DNA from: Acidimicrobiales bacterium
GTDB taxonomy: Bacteria > Actinomycetota > Acidimicrobiia > Acidimicrobiales > Ilumatobacteraceae
DNA length: 64,000 nucleotides
Direction: 5' to 3'
Assembly (NCBI GenBank): GCA_030828465.1
Contig: JAURCL010000001.1
Coordinates: 1-64,000, forward strand
Each line of letters starts with the position of its first letter. Position 1 is the stretch's first letter. Below the pieces are notes generated by a model. That model ran no database searches. It was not told the origin of the DNA and saw only the letters and a list, made by a program, of their open reading frames with translations. The position numbers and the translations under genes are program-made. Of the stretch, positions 11,114 to 38,050 are shown one piece after another.

Positions 11114-11977
11114 ATGAACGCGATCGGCGGCGCGCTCGATCGGCCTCACGGGGCGGTCGACGTGTCGGTCTCGCCCGTCTCCGTCGACGATCTCAACCGG
11201 CTTCGGCGCGTGGTCGCCGAACTCGACTCCGTGGTCGTCGCCTTCAGCGGAGGAGCCGATTCGGCGCTTCTCGCGGCGGTGTGCCACCAGGTGCTCGGCG
11301 AACGGGCGCTCGCGGTGACGGCCGTGTCGCCGTCGCTCGCGGCCGCCGAACTGGCTGACTGCGAGCGCTTGACCGGTGAGTGGGGCATGGGGTGGGAGAC
11401 GGTCCGCACCGACGAGATGGAGTCGGCCGCCTACCGTCGAAACGATCCCGACCGATGCTTCCACTGCAAGTCCGCCCTCATGGATGCGGTCGCGCCTCTA
11501 GCTGAGTCACTCGGAGCGGTGGTAGCGCTCGGGGTGAACATCGATGACCTCGCCGACCACCGGCCGGGCCAGCAGGCCGCTCGCGAACGGGGGGCCGTGT
11601 TCCCCCTCGTCGAAGCTGGTCTGACCAAGGACCAGGTGCGCGACTGCTCGCGGCTGCTCGGTCTCTCCACCTGGGACAAGCCAGCGGCTGCCTGTCTCGC
11701 GAGTCGGGTTCCGCACGGCACCGAGGTGTCGGTCGAGTTGCTGTCGCGGATCGAACGCGCCGAGGCGGCGCTCACGGAACTGGGTGCATCCGACCTCCGC
11801 GTCCGCCACCACGACGACGTCGCCCGGATCGAGGTTCCCTCCGCAGCGTTTGATCGCGTGGTCGCCGACCGTGAACGCATAGTGGCCGCGCTCCGGGCCC
11901 TCGGATACCGCTACATCACCCTCGACCTCGAAGGATTCCGTTCGGGGAGCATGAATCCGCCGGGGTCCCACGGGTGA
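11114..11977 (+). CDS. larE: LarE-family ATP-dependent sulfur transferase (nickel-pincer cofactor biosynthesis)
   Basis: A 287-residue PP-loop ATPase. The pyrophosphate loop AFSGGADS ends at residue 50. The LarE-type pair C115-x2-C118 (CFHCKSAL) and a KPAAACLASRVPHG segment with C194 follow; the latter is the usual site of the sacrificial cysteine. LarE adenylates the pyridine-dicarboxylate precursor and inserts sulfur during synthesis of the nickel-pincer nucleotide used by lactate racemase. LarB and LarC are not in the window. Its stop overlaps the GTG of the next acyltransferase gene. A LarA-family gene lies at 32270-33856. Confidence 0.88.
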   Translation: MNAIGGALDRPHGAVDVSVSPVSVDDLNRLRRVVAELDSVVVAFSGGADSALLAAVCHQVLGERALAVTAVSPSLAAAELADCERLTGEWGMGWETVRTDEMESAAYRRNDPDRCFHCKSALMDAVAPLAESLGAVVALGVNIDDLADHRPGQQAARERGAVFPLVEAGLTKDQVRDCSRLLGLSTWDKPAAACLASRVPHGTEVSVELLSRIERAEAALTELGASDLRVRHHDDVARIEVPSAAFDRVVADRERIVAALRALGYRYITLDLEGFRSGSMNPPGSHG

Positions 11978-12984
11978 CCGTCGATCACCGTTCGCGTCGC
12001 GCGCGTCTGCGACGCCGTTCGATTTCGATCACCGGGCTTGTGGTCATGACGGTCGTCTCCACGACCCTCGCGCCGTTCTCCGTTCCGGCACTCGCCGTCG
12101 TCGACGCGGTGAGGGGTCGTCGCCGTCTTCCTCTCGCCAGGCTGATTCTCTTCGGCATCTGGTGGTGTTGGATCGAGGTAATCGGTCTCGTCTCGGCCCT
12201 CGGGATGTGGGTGGCGGGTCGAGCTCGAGACGGCGACCTCCACTACCGGCTCATGTCTTGGTGGGCGGGGGCGTTGATGTGGGGCATGGGGACCGCCCTC
12301 GGACGGCGCCCCCAGTTGCAGGGTCTCGAACATCTGGCGACCGGCCGCGCGATCGTGTTGTCGAGGCACGCGAGCCTCGCCGACTCGTTGTTGTCGGCCT
12401 GGTCGATCGCAACCACGGCACGACTCCGTCCGAGATACGTGTTGAAGCGGGAATTGCTGTGGGATCCCTGCCTCGATGTGGTCGGGTTGCGAATTCCCAA
12501 TCACTTCCTGGCGCGGGCGGTCGACGACAACGCGGCTGAGCTGGAGGCGCTGCGTGAGCTGGCGAGGGACCTCGGTGAGCGCGATGTGGTGGTCATCTTC
12601 GCCGAGGGCACCAGGGCGAACCCCGTGAAACGAGCGCGGGCGCTGGAACGGATCGCGGAGCGCTCACCGGAGCGAGCCGCGCGCATGTCCGAACTGCGAC
12701 ACCTGCTGCCACCGCGGCCCGCGGGGAGTGTGGCGCTCGTAGAGGCCGACCCCGAGAACGATCTTGTGAGCGCATGGCACGTGGGTTTCGAGGGCATGGA
12801 CACCTTCGGTGGAATTATCTCGTCGCTCACATCCGGCGTCCCCGCGTTCCGATTCGTCGTCACCCGCCACGATCGGGAGTCGGTGCCGACCGGACCCGGG
12901 TTCGCCGACTGGCTTGACGCTCGTTGGCTGGAGATGGACTCCGAGGTCGACCGTGCGCTACGACAGGAGAATGACAGTGCTTGA
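11974..12984 (+). CDS. PlsC-type lysophospholipid acyltransferase (membrane)
   Basis: A 336-residue protein with N-terminal hydrophobic segments (about 15-40 and 50-75). The acyltransferase box I is SRHASLADSLL (HX4D), and FAEGTRANP is box III. The long insert and C-terminal tail resemble the YihG-like branch. It should acylate a glycerophospholipid or related acceptor at the membrane. The GTG start overlaps the larE stop by four bases, so translation is coupled to larE. This is an unexpected partner for a cofactor-biosynthesis gene and parallels the acyltransferase in the LarA operon. Confidence 0.85.
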   Translation: MTVDHRSRRARLRRRSISITGLVVMTVVSTTLAPFSVPALAVVDAVRGRRRLPLARLILFGIWWCWIEVIGLVSALGMWVAGRARDGDLHYRLMSWWAGALMWGMGTALGRRPQLQGLEHLATGRAIVLSRHASLADSLLSAWSIATTARLRPRYVLKRELLWDPCLDVVGLRIPNHFLARAVDDNAAELEALRELARDLGERDVVVIFAEGTRANPVKRARALERIAERSPERAARMSELRHLLPPRPAGSVALVEADPENDLVSAWHVGFEGMDTFGGIISSLTSGVPAFRFVVTRHDRESVPTGPGFADWLDARWLEMDSEVDRALRQENDSA

Positions 12985-13804
12985 ACCTCTGCTCGCGTTT
13001 GACTCGTTGATCGCCCTCTCGACCGGGGGAGCGCTCGGAGGCGCAGCGGTCGCGATCGCTGCCCTCATGGTGGGCACTTGGCTGGTCAGCCTCGTTCTCC
13101 GGAACGCGTCGATTGTCGACATCACGTGGGGTCTCGGATTCGTGGTGGTCGCCTGGGTCAGCGCCGTGCGCGCCGATGAGGCGGCGGGCTCGGCATCGCT
13201 CATGGTGGCGATGATCACCCTGTGGGGGCTGCGGCTCGGCGTGTACCTGTTCTGGCGCAATCACGGCAAGGGGGAGGACTACCGCTACGTCGCGATGCGA
13301 CGCCATTGGGGACCGCGATTCTGGATCATCAGCCTCGCGACGGTGTTCGGGCTCCAGGGAGCTCTGATGTGGGTCGTCTCGCTGCCGGTGCAGGTGTCCC
13401 ATGTCGGCGAGGGTGGGAGCGGCGCTGCCTCCTCGGCGCTCGTCGTCGTTGGCCTCGCGATCTATCTGCTCGGCCTTGGGTTCGAGGTGATCGGCGACCT
13501 GCAACTCGCCCGCTTCAAAGCGGATCCGACCAATGCGGGAAAGGTGATGCGCACTGGACTCTGGAGGTACACCCGTCATCCGAACTACTTCGGAGACGCC
13601 TGCGTCTGGTGGGGAATCGGTGTGGTTGCGCTGTCGGTCTCGGGTACCTGGTGGTCACTCGTGGGCCCCTTGGTGATGAATGTCCTGTTGCTTCGCGTCT
13701 CGGGCGTCGCCCTGCTTGAACGCTCGCTCCGCAAGCGCAAGCCCGACTACGAGGAATATGTGCGCACAACGAGCGCTTTCGTTCCTCGGCCGCCGCGCAG
13801 CTGA
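12971..13804 (+). CDS. DUF1295 membrane protein (steroid 5-alpha-reductase-like)
   Basis: About 277 residues with six or so hydrophobic segments and the DUF1295 signature VMRTGLWRYTRHPNYFGDACVWWGIG. The fold is related to isoprenylcysteine methyltransferases and steroid reductases; the substrate is unknown. It overlaps the end of the upstream acyltransferase gene by 14 bases. An AGGAGA at 12964-12969 sits too close to the ATG at 12971 but is well spaced for the GTG two codons later (12977), so that GTG may be the true start. It is the third gene of the larE unit. Confidence 0.85.
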   Translation: MTVLEPLLAFDSLIALSTGGALGGAAVAIAALMVGTWLVSLVLRNASIVDITWGLGFVVVAWVSAVRADEAAGSASLMVAMITLWGLRLGVYLFWRNHGKGEDYRYVAMRRHWGPRFWIISLATVFGLQGALMWVVSLPVQVSHVGEGGSGAASSALVVVGLAIYLLGLGFEVIGDLQLARFKADPTNAGKVMRTGLWRYTRHPNYFGDACVWWGIGVVALSVSGTWWSLVGPLVMNVLLLRVSGVALLERSLRKRKPDYEEYVRTTSAFVPRPPRS

Positions 13805-31256: not shown

Positions 31257-32267
31257 TCAGTTGCCGCGGCGCCCGAGGTCCGGCCAAGCACGCCCCCGCT
31301 CGCTTCGGCCGGCGACTCCTCGGCTGCGGAACTCGGTGAGCGCCCACGCCCGTCGCCATGGCGAAGCGCTCGGCCCGTGGAGATGGGCCGAGGCACCAGA
31401 GGCAGCGGTTCGGGCGGCGGTCCAGTAGTCGCTGTTCGCCTCCAAGGCGAGGCGATTGACGGCCTGCTCGATGCGATCGCTGAATCGGCGCGTGTTCTCG
31501 CCCTCCTCGGGCCGCATCGGGCGGCCGAAGATTACGCGAGTGCGACCAGGGCGCAAGCGTGAGGCGCCCTTGCCGAAGATCGCCCCGGTCCCGTCGATAT
31601 AGACGGGAACCACGTCGGCTCCGGTCCGGGCTGCGAGATAGGCCGCCCCGCCCTTGAAGCCCTGTCCCCAGCCGTCGGGAGACCGCCCGCCCTCCGGATA
31701 GATGAGCAGGCTCGATCCGTTGTCGACCAACTCTCGGAATCGGTCGCTGGAACGACGATTCGTTACCTCGCGATCAATGGGGATGGCGTTGAGGGCTAGG
31801 GCGGACACCGTCGCTTTCCAGCGCCGGTTGAAGAAATAGTCCGCGGCGGCGGCGACGGCGAGATCATCCCGCCACGGGCGGGGGATCACCGAGGTCATCA
31901 GGAGGGTGTCGAGATGGCTGTGGTGGTTGGGAGCGAAGATCAGCGGCGGGGCGGGGTCGAGTGCGGCGAGGTCGCGGAGCCGGTCGAGGCCGTCGATGGT
32001 CGGCCGTGTGGCTAGAACGGTTCCGAGTCGAAGCGGCCCTCGAGCGATCAGGCGCCGGGCCTCGCGGGCGAGTGGTCGTCGCGCCCAGTCTGTGTCGTAC
32101 TCGGCGCCGAGTTCATCAGGGGCCTCGGGCACGATCACGCCGTTCGGGACCGGCGGAGGCAGATAGGGGAAGCCGCGACGCCCGAGGGGACGTAGGCCGA
32201 GGCGGGTCAACCGTTCGAATGGGCCGATGAGCCGTTGCAGGCGGCTGGAGAGTTCGGCTCGCTTCAC
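31257..32267 (-). CDS. PlsC-type lysophospholipid acyltransferase
   Basis: A 336-residue acyltransferase with box I NHHSHLDTLLM (HX4D), box III LLIYPEGGRSPDGWG and an FGRPMRPEEGE segment. It lacks obvious strong membrane spans but should act at the membrane on acyl-CoA or acyl-ACP. It is the last gene of the four-gene operon starting at 37397 and begins two bases after the LarA-like stop, so it is surely cotranscribed with it. The acceptor lipid is unknown. Confidence 0.87.
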   Translation of the reverse strand: MKRAELSSRLQRLIGPFERLTRLGLRPLGRRGFPYLPPPVPNGVIVPEAPDELGAEYDTDWARRPLAREARRLIARGPLRLGTVLATRPTIDGLDRLRDLAALDPAPPLIFAPNHHSHLDTLLMTSVIPRPWRDDLAVAAAADYFFNRRWKATVSALALNAIPIDREVTNRRSSDRFRELVDNGSSLLIYPEGGRSPDGWGQGFKGGAAYLAARTGADVVPVYIDGTGAIFGKGASRLRPGRTRVIFGRPMRPEEGENTRRFSDRIEQAVNRLALEANSDYWTAARTAASGASAHLHGPSASPWRRAWALTEFRSRGVAGRSERGRAWPDLGRRGN

Positions 32268-32269
32268 GA

Positions 32270-33856
32270 CTAGTGGACGTCCGCGACGAGTACTGAGGGG
32301 ACGTGAAGGTGGGTGATCGTGGGGGAGCGACCGACGACCTCACTCGCGAGTTCGAACGCATCATCCATGGTGGAGGCTGGGGTGAAGCCGAGGCGACGAA
32401 CGGTCGCGGGGTCACCGCCGACGATGATCACGCGACCGGCCCACTGCTGACCGTGAGCGCCCCAGTACCAGGCGTAGAACGGGTGGACCCCGTGATACGC
32501 GTTGCCGGTTCGGTAGAGGTGTCGGTACCACTCGTCCTCGGCGTACTTCCGCTCCCATCGCTGGGACATCTCCGCGGGGTCCGTCGTGTCGGCGAGGACC
32601 TCGTCGAAGAAGTCGATGTAGCTCGGGTGATGGACCGGGTGGAACTCCTTCGTGGTGGGGTGGGTCATGATGACCACCCCTCCCTCGCGCACCAGCGGGC
32701 GACCCCGGTACATGTTGAACAGGTAGCCGAGGCCCATGCACATCACGAGCACCGGGTTCATGATCGACTCGGGGTTGTAGGGGCTGATGAAGGGGATACC
32801 CATCGTCAGGATGTCGGTCTGCCCCTCCACCGGAACGATGTGCTGGGCGTGGACATGTTCGAGGGTGCGCTCGTGGACCGTCTCGGTGAACCCGGCTTGG
32901 ACGCTCGTCATGGCGTAGGGGGCCTCGATCGAGTGGAAGATCCGCCGAGCGAGTCGTCGAGGTGTGCGGTCGAGGGCTTTCGAGGTGGCCAAGAAGGTGG
33001 CGCGGTCGCGACCGGTCCACTCCCACTCACGCTTGGAGAGGAAGTCGAACGGAGACGGAAAGGCGTCGTTGTTGATCGTGGACTCGATTTGGAAGACCTT
33101 GGGGCCGCTGTCACGGAGCACCGCGCCCATCCTCCAGATGGAGTGGTGCAGTGCAGAGTGGTGGCGATCCATCAGGCTCCGTGTGTTCTGCAGCGACTCC
33201 GGATTGTGGTGGTGGGAGAGGCATCGGTAGGAGGCCACGCCGGTCACGAGCGACTTCCAACCGCCATCCATCGCCACTTGATTGACGTTGGCGTAAACGA
33301 CGAGGTCCGACTCGGCGACCCGACGGTTGATCTCGAGGACCTCGCCGTGGTCGGTCTCGCCGAGCACGACCAGGTTGGCGTGGTCTTCCGCGTCGTGCTG
33401 GTACAGCGCTCCCGACGGATGGAAGGCGTCGAAGATCCGGTCCCCGAGAACGTGACGCAACTCATAGTCGTGCATGCGTCGATGGAGGCCGAGGGCCGCG
33501 ATGATGTGCACGTCGTCAACCCCTGCCTCTGCGGCCATGTCGAGGACCGCCTCGATGATGCGCTGCCTCGAGTCGGGGCGCCGCATCTTCGGAAGGGACA
33601 GGCTCGCGTCGTCGAAGCAGATCGTGAGGCGCATGCCGGCGTGAAGCAGCGAGGGGAGGGGTTCCATGTCGAGAGGCTGGAGAAGTGCCTGGCGGATGGC
33701 AGCATCGGGGTCCGCCAAGCCGGGGAGCGGCTCGGCTGGATAGATCACGCGGGAGCGATCGGCTGGGAGACGTTCGAGGCTGAACCGCTCCCCGTGCCAG
33801 AACAGCATGGGCGGCGTCGAACGATCGACGTCGAGGACGAATCCGGGTCGTGGCAT
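32270..33856 (-). CDS. LarA-family protein (nickel-pincer racemase/epimerase-like, DUF2088)
   Basis: A 528-residue protein with the LarA fold. CFDDASLSLPKMRRPD (80-95) matches LarA's DDxTRP, and IIAALGLHRRM holds H125. The cofactor-tethering Lys is K201 in GGWKSLVTG, and nickel-ligand H217 lies in SHHHNPE. The spacing H125-76-K201-16-H217 equals H108-K184-H200 of Lactobacillus LarA without gaps. The second LarA acid/base, H174, would fall at V191 and is absent. The C-terminal half (THPTTKEFHPVHHPSYIDFF) is longer than in LarA. The start overlaps the preceding dehydrogenase stop by one base. A racemase, epimerase or other pincer-nickel chemistry on an unknown substrate is inferred. Confidence 0.82.
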   Translation of the reverse strand: MPRPGFVLDVDRSTPPMLFWHGERFSLERLPADRSRVIYPAEPLPGLADPDAAIRQALLQPLDMEPLPSLLHAGMRLTICFDDASLSLPKMRRPDSRQRIIEAVLDMAAEAGVDDVHIIAALGLHRRMHDYELRHVLGDRIFDAFHPSGALYQHDAEDHANLVVLGETDHGEVLEINRRVAESDLVVYANVNQVAMDGGWKSLVTGVASYRCLSHHHNPESLQNTRSLMDRHHSALHHSIWRMGAVLRDSGPKVFQIESTINNDAFPSPFDFLSKREWEWTGRDRATFLATSKALDRTPRRLARRIFHSIEAPYAMTSVQAGFTETVHERTLEHVHAQHIVPVEGQTDILTMGIPFISPYNPESIMNPVLVMCMGLGYLFNMYRGRPLVREGGVVIMTHPTTKEFHPVHHPSYIDFFDEVLADTTDPAEMSQRWERKYAEDEWYRHLYRTGNAYHGVHPFYAWYWGAHGQQWAGRVIIVGGDPATVRRLGFTPASTMDDAFELASEVVGRSPTITHLHVPSVLVADVH

Positions 33857-35055
33857 CAGTTGCCCCTCCTGAGGTCGAAGGCGATTTTGACGGCGCCGCG
33901 TCGGCCGGCCTCGGCCGCATGGGCCAGAGCGTCGACATGGCGTTCGAGTGGGTAGGTGGCCGAGACCAGTCGCTCGGCGCCGGTTGTCTGCGCGAGGGCG
34001 ATGGCGAGGTCGAAGGTTCGGGCACTGGAGCCATCGTCGAGGGTCTCGGTGCCGTAGGTGTAGCACCCCCGTAGTTCCGTCTCCCGGTGCCAGAGGGCGG
34101 TCAGGTCGAGCGAGACGTCGGCGGGCATACCGAGGAGCACGACCCGGCCACGTGGTCGAGTCATCGACACGCTGGCCGAGATCGATTCGGAGGAGCCGAC
34201 TGCGTCGACGAGGCAGTGCGCGCCAGAGGAGAGGTGTCGTCCGATGACGTGCGCTCCTGTGCGGCGACGGATGGCGGCTGCCAGATCACCCGAGCGGACG
34301 ACCTCGACCGCGCCGAGCGCCCGGGCGATCGCGAACTGGTGCGGATAGCGGGCGCCAACGATCACCTCGGCCTCCGGCACGTGCGCTCTCAGCGCGGCCA
34401 CCGTCGCAAGGCCCATCGTGCCCGCGCCGAGCACTCCGATTACGAGGGGGCCGCGATCGAGGAGGTTGCCGCGGCGAAGGGCATCGCGCACGCTGAACGC
34501 CGCGTGGATGCCGCCAGCGAGTGGCTCGACCAACACCGCTGCCTCATCGGACAGGGCGTCGGGAATCTCATGAATTTGGGAGTCGTGGGCCCAGAACCAC
34601 GGGGCCCATCCTCCTCCGGTTGAGTTGCAGAAGCCGGTTTGAATGCCGGGTTCCAGCGGTCCGGTGACGAGGTGGCGATAGTCATCGCCGTCCCCTGGGG
34701 CGGAGTCAGGAGACGGCGGGACGGCGTCACGGGCGGCGTGGCCGAGCACCGGCTCGATCACGACACGCCGACCGTCGCCGCGAGTGCCCACGATCTCGTG
34801 GCCGGGAACGAACGGGAAGGACACCCAGTCCTCGAAGTAGGCGGAGGCGCGACCTTCGGCGAGCGCGAGGTCGGAACCGCAGATCCCCGACAGCGTCGTG
34901 TCGATCCGCTCCCACCCCGGGCCGGGCTGTTCCGGATCGTCGATCTCGCCGAAGGTGAGCGGCCCGACACGGGTCGCCGAACGCTGGCTGATCGACGAGA
35001 CGAGCCGCGCGGCACCGAAACGGGGAACACTGCGACGGACGCTGAGCGCTCTCAT
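33856..35055 (-). CDS. zinc-binding alcohol dehydrogenase family protein
   Basis: A 399-residue medium-chain dehydrogenase. Catalytic zinc ligands are likely C59 (SGICGSD), H86/E87 (VPGHEIVG) and E177 (LVEPLAGG), and the NAD(P) motif is GVLGAGTMGLATVAAL. The usual four-cysteine structural-zinc loop is replaced by a cysteine-free stretch at about 101-130 (EPVLGHAARDAVPPSPDS), so only the catalytic metal is expected. The start overlaps the stop of the reductase/HAD fusion by four bases (ATGA). It could oxidise or reduce the alcohol/aldehyde that the operon handles. Confidence 0.88.
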   Translation of the reverse strand: MRALSVRRSVPRFGAARLVSSISQRSATRVGPLTFGEIDDPEQPGPGWERIDTTLSGICGSDLALAEGRASAYFEDWVSFPFVPGHEIVGTRGDGRRVVIEPVLGHAARDAVPPSPDSAPGDGDDYRHLVTGPLEPGIQTGFCNSTGGGWAPWFWAHDSQIHEIPDALSDEAAVLVEPLAGGIHAAFSVRDALRRGNLLDRGPLVIGVLGAGTMGLATVAALRAHVPEAEVIVGARYPHQFAIARALGAVEVVRSGDLAAAIRRRTGAHVIGRHLSSGAHCLVDAVGSSESISASVSMTRPRGRVVLLGMPADVSLDLTALWHRETELRGCYTYGTETLDDGSSARTFDLAIALAQTTGAERLVSATYPLERHVDALAHAAEAGRRGAVKIAFDLRRGN

Positions 35056-37397
35056 CGTCCACCTCGTCGGAGGCGCTCATCGCCGAATGGCGCGATCGGG
35101 AGCAGCGGTCGAGGTCCACCGGGTGCCTTGGCCCAGTGCTCGACGAGCCATCCCCGCTTTCGAGCGATGGCGGCCAGCCGCGTCTCAGGGTTTACGGCAA
35201 CTGGGAAGCCCACGGCCTCGAAGAGCGGGAGGTCGGATGAGGAGTCGGCGTAGGCGACGCACTCCTCCATGCGGAAACCCTCAGCTTCGCAGTAGTCCGC
35301 GAGGAGTTGGGCCCGGGCTTCCCCGGTTGGGGGCACGGTGGTCATCTCGCCGCTGAGGGTCCCGTCGTGGCGAACGCTCATTTCCGCAGCCACGATCTCG
35401 TCGAAGAGGGGTCTCAGGCCAGCGACGTTGAAGTTGAGCGCGCCGGTGATGAGGATCGTGCGGTGTCCGGCGGCGCGGTGCTCGCGGACACGTCGGATTC
35501 CTTCCGGGAAGCTCTTGGTCAGCACGAGATGGGTCATCATCGCGGCCACGTCCTCCTCGATCTGCTCGATCGGGGCGTTCTCGTAGCGCCGATAGAAGTG
35601 ACGCAGGAAGTCGGTGCGGTCTCGGCGATCGAGACGAAGGAGTGAGGGGGCTTCGGCGAGTGTTCGCGCCACGTAGCGGAGTCGCTCGCCGCGGTCAAGG
35701 CGGCGGGTGGCCAGCCAGGAGTAGTTCGCGACGACATTGGAGGCGATGAGGGTGTTCTCGAGGTCGAAGGCGGCGACCTGGCGTGCCGGATCGAGAACCT
35801 GACGGCGGAGTCGGGCGGTGCGGTCCGTCGTCTTGGCGCGGCCCGGTGTGGTTTTCACCCGAGCGTGCTCGATGATTGAGGGAAGGTGGATCTCGTTGAT
35901 GTAGGTGGGCCAGTCCACGAGTCGCGGATCGAAGGCGAAGTCGCGCTGGTCGTTCTCGGGCAGGCGGTCCCAGAGGGACAGCAGGTTGTCGACTTGGTAG
36001 ATCGCTTCGCACTCGGTGTAGAGGCCGTAGAGCTCGACGTACTCGAGGGCCCGCTCGACCTCCATGCGTCGAGTCTCGAGGTTGGCGGCGAGTTCGGCCT
36101 GGCGTCCGCGCAAGGGCAGCGATTGGAGAGCTGACTCAGCGCGTGTGATCACCGCTTTGGCTCGGGTCAATTGGGTTTGCACGCGGCCCCGTCCGGGGAA
36201 GCTCCATTCGGGAACGATGATCGGTTGGCCCTCGTTGTCGTAGAGCGGATGGGCGGTGAACCAGCTGCTGACGTTGTCGACGAGGGCTCGGTAACGGAGT
36301 GGGTTGATCCCACCGGAGGCCACCTGGGTGATGGGCGGCGCGTCATCCGGTCCGGCGGCAGCGACGGCGACGATGGCGGCCACAACCATGTCCACGGGGA
36401 TGACGTCGATCGTGCCCTCGGGGACCCCCGGGAATTCCTTCAGCAGACCTCGGGCGTAGGAGAGGATCACCGGCTCGGCCATGCGGAAGCCTCGAATCCA
36501 CCCTGGACGGGGCTCCGCCCACGCCGACTCGATGATCGAGGGTCGCACGATCGAGACGGGGACCTGACCACGGCTCTCGGTGAGGGCCTGCTCGCCGAGC
36601 GCTTTGGTGAAGGCGTAGGCGTCGGGCCAACCGACGCTCGCCGCGCGAGCTCGACCGGCCGCGACGAGTTGGTCGCGCACCCAGCGGTTCCGGAGTTGCT
36701 CGGTCTTGGCGGCGAGAGCGGGCGCTCCCGCGGCTCCGAGTTCGGCGCGGGCACGTTTGCGGAACTCAGCGAGTCGTTCGGGACGCCGACTCTCGGCCTC
36801 GGTGTCGCCCTTCAGTCGGCGGGCCGAGGTGACCTCGTTGCGCCAGTCAAGGCCGATGTCGAATGGTCCGTCGCTGACCAGTTGCTCGGGTGCGGTGCCG
36901 CGGCGGTTGCCGGCGACGTAGCAGGTGGACACGGCGACGAGATGTGGCGTGATGTCAAGTTCGGCGCAGAGCGAGGCGATGCGGGTCGGCCCAAGCAGGT
37001 TGATCTCGACCGCCTGGTCGAGAGGTGAGTCGAAGGAGACGGTGGCAGCGGAGTGGATGACGACATCGACCGTGGCGAACACCGCCCGCGCCGCCTCGTC
37101 GAGCCCGAGTCCGTCGGAGGAGACGTCGCCGGCGATCGTGGTGACGCGACGGGCGCACATCTCCGAGAAGCCTTCCTTGCCGAGATCTGACCGGAGACGG
37201 TCGAAGGCGTCGTTGGAGAGCAGCTCTCGCTCGGTCCTGCGGGCGGCGGCGGTGCGCCGTCCATCGCGGACCAGCAGAACGAGCTCGCAGTCGGGCACAC
37301 CCCTGAGGAGCCGCTCAACGAGGGCGGTGCCTACAAAGCCCGTGGCACCGGTGATGACGATCTTCTTTCCGGCGAGACCTTCGGCGATCACGACCAT
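35052..37397 (-). CDS. fusion of fatty acyl-CoA reductase-like SDR and HAD-IB phosphatase-like domains
   Basis: A 781-residue two-domain protein. The N-terminal Rossmann domain has GATGFVG (17-23) and the active-site Y261-x3-K265 in GWPDAYAFTKALGE, a motif very like fatty acyl-CoA reductases (Male-sterility/NAD-binding-4 family). A helical linker (about 400-530) follows. The C-terminal HAD-IB domain has motif I FDLENTL (545-551), where the second Asp is replaced by E547; motif II ILITGALNF; and motif IV YADSSSDLP. It heads the operon with the dehydrogenase, LarA-like and acyltransferase genes. Reduction of an acyl-CoA or acyl-ACP is inferred; HAD activity is doubtful given the substitution. 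Confidence 0.88.
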   Translation of the reverse strand: MVVIAEGLAGKKIVITGATGFVGTALVERLLRGVPDCELVLLVRDGRRTAAARRTERELLSNDAFDRLRSDLGKEGFSEMCARRVTTIAGDVSSDGLGLDEAARAVFATVDVVIHSAATVSFDSPLDQAVEINLLGPTRIASLCAELDITPHLVAVSTCYVAGNRRGTAPEQLVSDGPFDIGLDWRNEVTSARRLKGDTEAESRRPERLAEFRKRARAELGAAGAPALAAKTEQLRNRWVRDQLVAAGRARAASVGWPDAYAFTKALGEQALTESRGQVPVSIVRPSIIESAWAEPRPGWIRGFRMAEPVILSYARGLLKEFPGVPEGTIDVIPVDMVVAAIVAVAAAGPDDAPPITQVASGGINPLRYRALVDNVSSWFTAHPLYDNEGQPIIVPEWSFPGRGRVQTQLTRAKAVITRAESALQSLPLRGRQAELAANLETRRMEVERALEYVELYGLYTECEAIYQVDNLLSLWDRLPENDQRDFAFDPRLVDWPTYINEIHLPSIIEHARVKTTPGRAKTTDRTARLRRQVLDPARQVAAFDLENTLIASNVVANYSWLATRRLDRGERLRYVARTLAEAPSLLRLDRRDRTDFLRHFYRRYENAPIEQIEEDVAAMMTHLVLTKSFPEGIRRVREHRAAGHRTILITGALNFNVAGLRPLFDEIVAAEMSVRHDGTLSGEMTTVPPTGEARAQLLADYCEAEGFRMEECVAYADSSSDLPLFEAVGFPVAVNPETRLAAIARKRGWLVEHWAKAPGGPRPLLPIAPFGDERLRRGGR

Positions 37398-37412
37398 ATG
37401 TCTATCAGGTTC

Positions 37413-37428
37413 TCTACCAAGTGGTAGA
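37413..37428. promoter_or_regulatory. TetR operator palindrome
   Basis: TCTACCA-AG-TGGTAGA is a perfect inverted repeat in the 59-base gap between the operon start (37397) and the TetR start (37457). A degenerate half-site GTCTATCA lies 6-13 bases to its left. It probably lets the TetR protein repress both directions. Confidence 0.7.
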
Positions 37429-37456
37429 CGGACGCTGTGGCTGCGAGGATGTCGGG

Positions 37457-38050
37457 GTGCCGGAGCGACCCACGAGAGATCGAATCCTTGATGAGGCGGT
37501 CGATCTCTTCGGTTTCCGCGGGGTCGAGGCGGTCTCGCTCGACGAGATCGCGCGCGCCGTTGGCGTGCGCAAGCAGTCGGTTCTCTACTGGTTTCCCTCC
37601 AAGGAGGCTTTGGTGGCTGCGGTGCTCGACACGGTCGCCGATGAGCTCGTGGTTGTCATCACGGCCGCAATTCGCGCCTCAGACGACGACCCGTTGGTCC
37701 GTATCGATGCCGTGATCCGTGCCGTGTTCGGGCCCGCGGTTAGGCGGCCGGCGCTGCTCGGGTTGGTTCGCGAGCTCGGACGGCTTGATCGCGAACTCGT
37801 CGAGCGGCTCCGCTCGCGGATCGCCCCCCTGGTCGAGGCCTGTGTGGCCTATCTCGAGTTGGAGATGGAGCGTGGGCGTCTACGGCGAGCGGACCCGCGA
37901 CTCGTCGCGGCTCTGGCCTACGCGACGGTCACCGGAATCGCGACCGAGCCCGAGGCGCTCGAGACGGTCGGATGGTCGCGTGACCTCGCCGGGCTGCGTC
38001 GACTTCGCGACGAGTTGCGCGGCTTCCTCCGCGCCGCGCTTGCTCCGTGA
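37457..38050 (+). CDS. TetR-family transcriptional regulator
   Basis: A 197-residue TetR repressor. The helix-turn-helix is near residues 12-50 (RILDEAVDLFGFRG, VSLDEIARAVGVRKQSVLYWF). The C-terminal ligand domain is helical and Leu/Arg-rich. The GTG at 37457 is chosen because GAGGA lies eight bases upstream and homology begins at RPTRDRIL. It is divergent from the reductase/HAD-dehydrogenase-LarA-acyltransferase operon and very likely represses it through the palindrome at 37413-37428. A fatty-acyl-type ligand is plausible but unproven. Confidence 0.9.
   Translation: MPERPTRDRILDEAVDLFGFRGVEAVSLDEIARAVGVRKQSVLYWFPSKEALVAAVLDTVADELVVVITAAIRASDDDPLVRIDAVIRAVFGPAVRRPALLGLVRELGRLDRELVERLRSRIAPLVEACVAYLELEMERGRLRRADPRLVAALAYATVTGIATEPEALETVGWSRDLAGLRRLRDELRGFLRAALAP

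Follow-up and report, generated by a model that had tools for sequence, protein, structure and literature searches.

The stretch of DNA analysed here (the window; 64,000 nucleotides of contig JAURCL010000001.1, assembly GCA_030828465.1) belongs to an Acidimicrobiales bacterium, whose draft genome of 1.83 Mb is 93% complete and whose nearest named relatives are marine Ilumatobacteraceae. It carries a compact unit of four genes, which encode a fatty acyl reductase fused to a HAD hydrolase domain (FAR-HAD), a zinc-type dehydrogenase (ADH), a homolog of the nickel-pincer enzyme LarA and a PlsC-type acyltransferase, and a divergent TetR-family regulator gene lies beside it (Table 1). FAR-HAD and ADH overlap by 4 bases, ADH and the LarA homolog by 1 base, and a gap of 2 bases separates the LarA homolog from PlsC; this packing had been described in an earlier note on the same DNA, and the coordinates were re-checked and found correct. 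The protein types named in that note were also upheld by domain matches (NAD_binding_4/Male sterility plus HAD, ADH_N/ADH_zinc_N, Lar_N, Acyltransferase and TetR_N). The LarA homolog starts from the ATG at 33856, not from the GTG at 34066 that opens a longer open reading frame (ORF), and the TetR gene likely starts from the GTG at 37457.

Table 1. Features of the four-gene unit and of the separate larE locus in the window (aa, amino acids)
Feature	Position	Strand	Description
FAR-HAD	35052..37397	-	781 aa; fatty acyl-CoA/ACP reductase (male-sterility family) with fused HAD-IB hydrolase domain
Zinc-type MDR dehydrogenase (ADH)	33856..35055	-	399 aa; PF00107/PF08240 (ADH_N/ADH_zinc_N)
LarA homolog, LarAH14/15/16 family, single catalytic histidine	32270..33856	-	528 aa; Lar_N, NF052592
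PlsC-type acyltransferase	31257..32267	-	336 aa; PF01553, 64 bits
Divergent TetR-family regulator	37457..38050	+	PF00440 (TetR_N)
Palindromic operator TCTACCAAGTGGTAGA	37413..37428	.	conserved between FAR and TetR across relatives
LarE, sulfur transferase for nickel-pincer cofactor synthesis	11114..11977	+	separate locus of the same window; TIGR00268, 305.8 bits (cut-off 150)

FAR-HAD matched PF07993 (NAD_binding_4, 205.9 bits) and PF12710. Both the NAD_binding_4 domain and the YxxxK active site that mark a FAR are present, and the YxxxK residues (Y261, K265) are invariant in 111 homologs, as is the HAD nucleophile D545. The HAD motif DxDxT reads DLENT at 35751-35765, and the residue at the +2 position, which is Glu in 101 of the 111 homologs and Asp in 10, is unusual for a phosphatase when it is Glu. 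The ADH gave sub-cut-off NCBIfam matches and a weak likeness to idonate, inosose and threonine dehydrogenases; its catalytic-site residues C59, H86 and E87 are invariant in 95 homologs, and the structural-zinc cysteines are kept in 50 of the 95 and replaced in 45, including that of the window. The HX4D (H115, D120) and PEGxR motifs of PlsC are invariant in 113 homologs.

Conservation of the gene order and its operator

The gene order was compared at 80 named loci of Acidimicrobiia and at 40 loci that range from the family to the phylum, and counts were taken only where a locus had room. At 66/66 named and 38/38 family-to-phylum loci, the LarA homolog has the HAD part of FAR-HAD upstream of it on its own strand, and PlsC lies downstream of the LarA homolog at 73/73 and 35/39, the four loci without it being three of Rubrobacteraceae (L106-L108) and L089. 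FAR and HAD are found in a single ORF in 114 of 116 cases. This gene order is far beyond chance. The relatives share descent and the counts are therefore not independent, and a stronger argument than the raw counts is that the cassette is kept across classes despite changing flanks. It is found in two or more bacterial classes, Ilumatobacter nonamiensis (L116) being one carrier, and gltD, ddl and murF flank it mainly inside the family. The cassette-bearing families of the phylum besides Rubrobacteraceae (our family f45) lie outside the class of the window, probably in Thermoleophilia. Among 12 more distant LarA homologs, FAR-HAD was found upstream in 0/12 and PlsC downstream in 0/11. None of the phylum's other LarA homologs (23-40% identity) that were checked for a common context has the cassette, and a search of plasmids for sequences related to the LarA homolog returned ordinary lactate-racemase-type larA only. 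In the profile search, full-length FAR-HAD occurred only in genomes with a LarAH14/15/16 protein, except for G099, in which FAR-HAD lies near a contig end. The earlier note held that the unit would not be a dedicated pathway if its homologs were never neighbours in other genomes, and there they adjoin one another. A metagenome-assembled contig titled Bifidobacterium breve (L140) also bears the cassette, with a LarA homolog 70% identical to that of the window, and its label is probably wrong.

The distances of the LarA homolog and of FAR-HAD between relatives are strongly correlated (r 0.88), which would also be expected from descent alone if unrelated lipid genes without one pathway were held together by vertical inheritance. 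We consider this explanation highly improbable, since the cassette is retained beyond the family although its gltD, ddl and murF flanks differ there, and presence and absence remain coupled even at split loci such as that of the Rubrobacteraceae genome G124, where PlsY-FAR-HAD (PlsY being an acyltransferase described below) and the LarA homolog are both retained on different contigs. The ADH is likewise kept in trans in G314, whose cassette lacks the gene but which encodes a 57% ADH ortholog elsewhere in the genome, and three genomes without the LarA homolog gave weak or no ADH matches only.

A perfect palindrome, TCTACCAnnTGGTAGA, forms the core of the operator TCTACCAAGTGGTAGA between the four-gene unit and the divergent TetR gene, and the latter sequence has its sole match in the 64-kb window at this site when up to 1 mismatch is allowed (0 expected, 100 shuffles). 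The divergent TetR gene adjoins FAR-HAD in most relatives, and most Acidimicrobiia have TCTACCAnnTGGTAGA between these two genes, as does at least one locus from beyond the class (L202). When 25 whole genomes were scanned, the palindrome was found in 17/17 cassette-bearing members of the family, one copy having 1 mismatch; in G030 it lies on a different contig from the cassette, since the contig of the cassette breaks off within FAR, and a second, imperfect site was seen in G032 only among these 17. Two further genomes of the order had the palindrome in the same scan, this form of it was missing from three genomes of the order that bear the cassette (G048, G138, G046), and it was not found in the whole-genome scan of three genomes lacking the LarA homolog. 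The presence of the palindrome in all cassette-bearing family members with almost no extra sites suggests that, within the family, TetR is likely a local, single-target regulator, which would repress the unit from this conserved operator. Thus the palindromic operator reported in the earlier note is real, unique in the window and kept in relatives, and the gene order together with the local operator bears out its view of a single co-regulated, dedicated unit.

A nickel-pincer enzyme with a single catalytic histidine

The LarA homolog of the window scored 862 bits against NF052592 (LarAH14/15/16), for which the curated cut-off is 740 and full-length relatives score 834-916 bits, and by score it is a member of this family (groups 14-16), which has no known activity. 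LarAH14 of Frankia was inactive in all seven reactions tested, and groups 14/15 have been described as lacking the His174 of LarA. The main texts consulted do not mention a lipid-cassette context for LarAH14/15/16. In the alignment with LarA, His125 corresponds to H108, Lys201 to K184, which binds the cofactor covalently, and His217 to the nickel ligand H200; K201 and H217 are found in 139 of 141 homologs. No histidine stands at the H174 position, where the loop is shortened and Leu/Gln are found, a feature missed by the earlier note. The arginine R75/R73 of LarA, which serves the cofactor phosphate and the substrate carboxylate and makes these contacts in LarA-Ip, is replaced by Leu86 (Leu in 131/141 homologs, Ile/Cys/Val in nine more). 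The protein hence has only one of the two catalytic histidines (H108, H174) of the LarA 2-hydroxyacid racemases/epimerases and is without their arginine, and because the second catalytic histidine is absent it is unlikely, judged by its residues, to be an ordinary 2-hydroxyacid racemase. To our knowledge, no substrate is known for nickel-pincer enzymes without the second histidine.

The AlphaFold model of the LarA homolog (pLDDT 87) is nearest in fold to the single-histidine LarA of PDB entry 9q3k (Z 38.5, rmsd 2.5, 454 residues aligned), and the non-LarA chains had Z of 6.2 or less, which we take as common arrangements. The group 17 proteins LarA-Sp and LarA-Bw (9q3k and 9q3j; Z 38.5 and 35.5) share with it the fold, one catalytic histidine, the cofactor lysine and the nickel histidine. 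They carry Asn at the His174 site and Lys at R75 and have sugar genes as neighbours, whereas the window protein has a shorter loop (Leu/Gln), Leu86 and lipid genes as neighbours. These relatives near sugar genes, which bind a 316-Da ligand of unassigned identity, and the resemblance of the ADH to polyol dehydrogenases would suit the synthesis of a lipid head group or acylated sugar acid, in which a polyol or sugar acid would be isomerised by the LarA homolog, oxidised by the idonate/inosose-like ADH, dephosphorylated by HAD and acylated by PlsC. Such a role is decidedly unlikely, as it leaves FAR without explanation and the conserved unit showed no recognisable sugar kinase, transporter or glycosyltransferase.

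The genes for the cofactor follow the LarA homolog in their distribution. None of the 11 LarA-less genomes tested has larC, and all genomes with the LarA homolog have it except the window draft; larB over the cut-off had the same distribution, bar a fragment in G035; and larE over the cut-off was missing from three LarA-bearing genomes and, among six LarA-less genomes tested, was present only in G037. In the window genome larB lies at the end of contig C74, and larC adjoins larB in relatives, so we attribute the failure to see larC in this 93% complete draft to the contig break beside larB. The larB, larC and larE set was counted as encoded, with larC itself unseen in the draft. The earlier note had called the protein nickel-pincer type and asked whether it has the pincer cofactor; the cofactor residues are kept, larBCE co-occur with it, and the pincer machinery thus appears to be encoded. 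The larE gene, also overlooked by the earlier note although it lies within the same window, overlaps by 4 bases with a downstream gene for a second PlsC-type acyltransferase (11974-12984), after which comes a DUF1295 protein gene (12809-13804), and this neighbourhood (span 11114-13804) is possibly another link between the pincer cofactor and lipids. Four related genomes of 1.5-2.1 Mb (G018, G020, G024 and G057) have neither the LarA homolog nor larC nor FAR-HAD, and those tested for the operator and the ADH lack these too; they form a natural cassette-minus comparison set.

The Rubrobacteraceae version and known ether-lipid routes

Family f45 was identified as Rubrobacteraceae because a sequence in G134 is 100% identical to Rubrobacter indicoceani plasmid DNA, with the same coordinates. 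In this family the order is PlsY, FAR-HAD, ADH, variable genes and the LarA homolog, and PlsC is missing. The cassette PlsY, a glycerol-3-phosphate acyltransferase, is the only PlsY found in 6 of 8 Rubrobacteraceae genomes, and its position beside FAR-HAD, usually as the sole copy, links FAR-HAD with the opening reaction of glycerophospholipid synthesis. We had expected a duplicated, pathway-specific PlsY in Rubrobacter, and this was rejected: with usually one copy, the link is more central and less specific. A protoglobin gene stands beside the ADH within the split cassette of two Rubrobacteraceae (L106, 12304-12894; L107, 12667-13323). On the R. indicoceani plasmid (L213, 2956-6753), genes for MaoC, MmgE/PrpD and acyl-CoA dehydrogenase come after an ordinary larA, so that the genus has a different LarA context as well. 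No PlsY was found in the cassette-bearing genomes G108, G110 and G138, in which PlsB was not searched for, and the first acylation of glycerol-3-phosphate there must use another enzyme. A putative operon is reportedly present in all five species of one study of Rubrobacterales lipids; this putative Rubrobacter operon for 1-O-alkyl-glycerol-phosphate may be the PlsY-FAR-HAD-ADH-LarA homolog set that the Rubrobacteraceae compared here carry. Mixed ether/ester lipids were described as dominant in five Rubrobacterales species (Sinninghe Damste et al. 2023, doi 10.1016/j.syapm.2023.126404).

PlsY also bears on two other explanations. Long-chain 1,2-diol or 2-hydroxyacyl lipids would be made if the LarA homolog isomerised a 2-hydroxy fatty acid (or converted a 2-hydroxyaldehyde to a 1-hydroxy-2-ketone), FAR and ADH reduced the product to a 1,2-diol backbone and PlsC acylated the 2-hydroxyl. 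Membranes of 1,2-diols exist, their synthesis is without a known route (Thermomicrobium), and a FAR, a C2-type dehydrogenase and an acyltransferase would suit it; but the acyltransferase partnered with the cassette in Rubrobacteraceae implies a glycerol backbone there, and the carboxylate-binding arginine and second histidine of the racemases are missing, so we regard this explanation as unlikely. Quite unlikely, too, is an operon for fatty alcohols, wax esters or other neutral lipids, in which FAR makes the alcohol, the PlsC-like enzyme esterifies it and the nickel enzyme makes a small hydroxy-acid partner. The intact active-site motifs of FAR and the acyltransferase agree with it, but it explains neither the strict coupling to a nickel-pincer enzyme and LarBCE nor the Rubrobacter PlsY, and the operon has no wax synthase family domain.

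Each protein of the unit falls in a described family, and the gene set resembles in parts the elb ether-lipid operon of the aerobe Myxococcus xanthus, in which a FAR, an AGPAT-type acyltransferase and a HAD protein are encoded together, as they are here. ElbD of Myxococcus fuses FAR, acyl-CoA synthetase (ACS), acyl carrier protein (ACP) and acyltransferase domains. The cassette, unlike elb, is without the two middle domains of ElbD, no AMP-binding or ACP domain of the FAR-ACS-ACP-acyltransferase architecture being found in the four genes, and it has a nickel-pincer enzyme and a zinc ADH. No statement that Myxococcus elbC is a LarA homolog was found in the literature; Myxococcota genomes were not searched. 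AGPS, of animals and myxobacteria, and the anaerobic Ger would yield the same product class, and neither was found in the cassette genomes examined. For the Ger/PlsA route, PF09989 (DUF2229 activase/reductase) was absent from 13 cassette genomes, with a positive control in Thermotoga maritima. For AGPS, all the PF02913 proteins examined, which came from the window genome, R. indicoceani and G438, score much higher against glycolate/lactate oxidases than against AGPS: the single one in the 93% complete window draft is glycolate-oxidase-like (398 against 75 bits for AGPS), and the three of R. indicoceani are likewise oxidase/dehydrogenase-like. The most likely role of the set is a route to ether-type membrane lipids that has not been described before.

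A proposed ether-type glycerolipid pathway

Our favoured, still tentative, reading is that the operon is a dedicated pathway for a glycerolipid backbone, probably of the 1-O-alkyl (ether) kind, and that the nickel enzyme shifts a hydride inside an intermediate built on glycerol. The product would most likely be 1-O-alkyl (ether) glycerol phosphate, a precursor of mixed ether/ester phospholipids, and we infer that hydride chemistry on the glycerol unit, the task of AGPS or Ger in other organisms, falls here to the nickel enzyme. The FAR domain, whose catalytic residues are in place, would reduce a long-chain acyl thioester to the fatty aldehyde or alcohol, as its family suggests. The LarA homolog would carry the nickel-pincer cofactor on Lys201, with His217 on the nickel and His125 as the base, and would take a hydride from the C2 carbinol of glycerol. 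The hydride may pass to the neighbouring alkyl carbon, which would close the ether and leave a C2 ketone (alkyl-dihydroxyacetone phosphate), or it may return to C2 following acyl-to-alkyl exchange; such a step would be compatible with one histidine and no carboxylate-binding arginine. The zinc dehydrogenase could then reduce the C2 ketone to alkyl-glycerol-3-phosphate, PlsC would acylate at sn-2, and the HAD domain would act on a phosphate ester. A bolder proposal, which we hold to be doubtful, is that the single-histidine nickel-pincer enzyme is itself the ether-bond-forming (or bond-exchange) catalyst by shifting a hydride within a glycerolipid intermediate, which would be a new reaction class for the cofactor, and that an oxygen-tolerant pathway to glycerol ether lipids extends across Acidimicrobiia, Rubrobacteria and further Actinomycetota.

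Several points weigh against the ether-type pathway. We know of no nickel-pincer enzyme with ether-forming activity. Some Acidimicrobiales have the ADH outside the cassette, and its match in the Rubrobacteraceae genome G124 is weak; PlsC and FAR would also suit wax or ordinary phospholipid roles, and the PlsY beside FAR-HAD could be a housekeeping neighbour. The negative result for AGPS comes from PDB sequence searches, which a divergent AGPS may escape and in which ElbD was not searched. No lipid data for Acidimicrobiia, the window organism included, were found in the literature, and publications on the lipids of Thermoleophilum and other Actinobacteria were of no help. The pathway interpretation of the earlier note was partly supported. 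Its dedicated unit and its nickel-pincer call stand, and the ether that it named as one product is supported as a candidate by the likeness of FAR, acyltransferase and HAD to elb and by the PlsY link of Rubrobacteraceae; its lipid head-group role has no evidence in its favour, and its alcohol oxidation by the ADH was a guess, reduction being equally possible.

This strict, regulated gene set joins two questions, the substrate of single-histidine nickel-pincer enzymes and the synthesis of ether lipids in aerobic actinobacteria, and Ilumatobacter nonamiensis and Rubrobacter may serve as cultured hosts for both. If the ether-lipid reading is true, it gives an orphan nickel enzyme a testable role. 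If the nickel enzyme does make or exchange the ether bond, the chemistry of its cofactor would reach past the isomerisation of 2-hydroxy acids, and genomes would offer a marker for bacterial ether lipids, compounds used in geochemistry.

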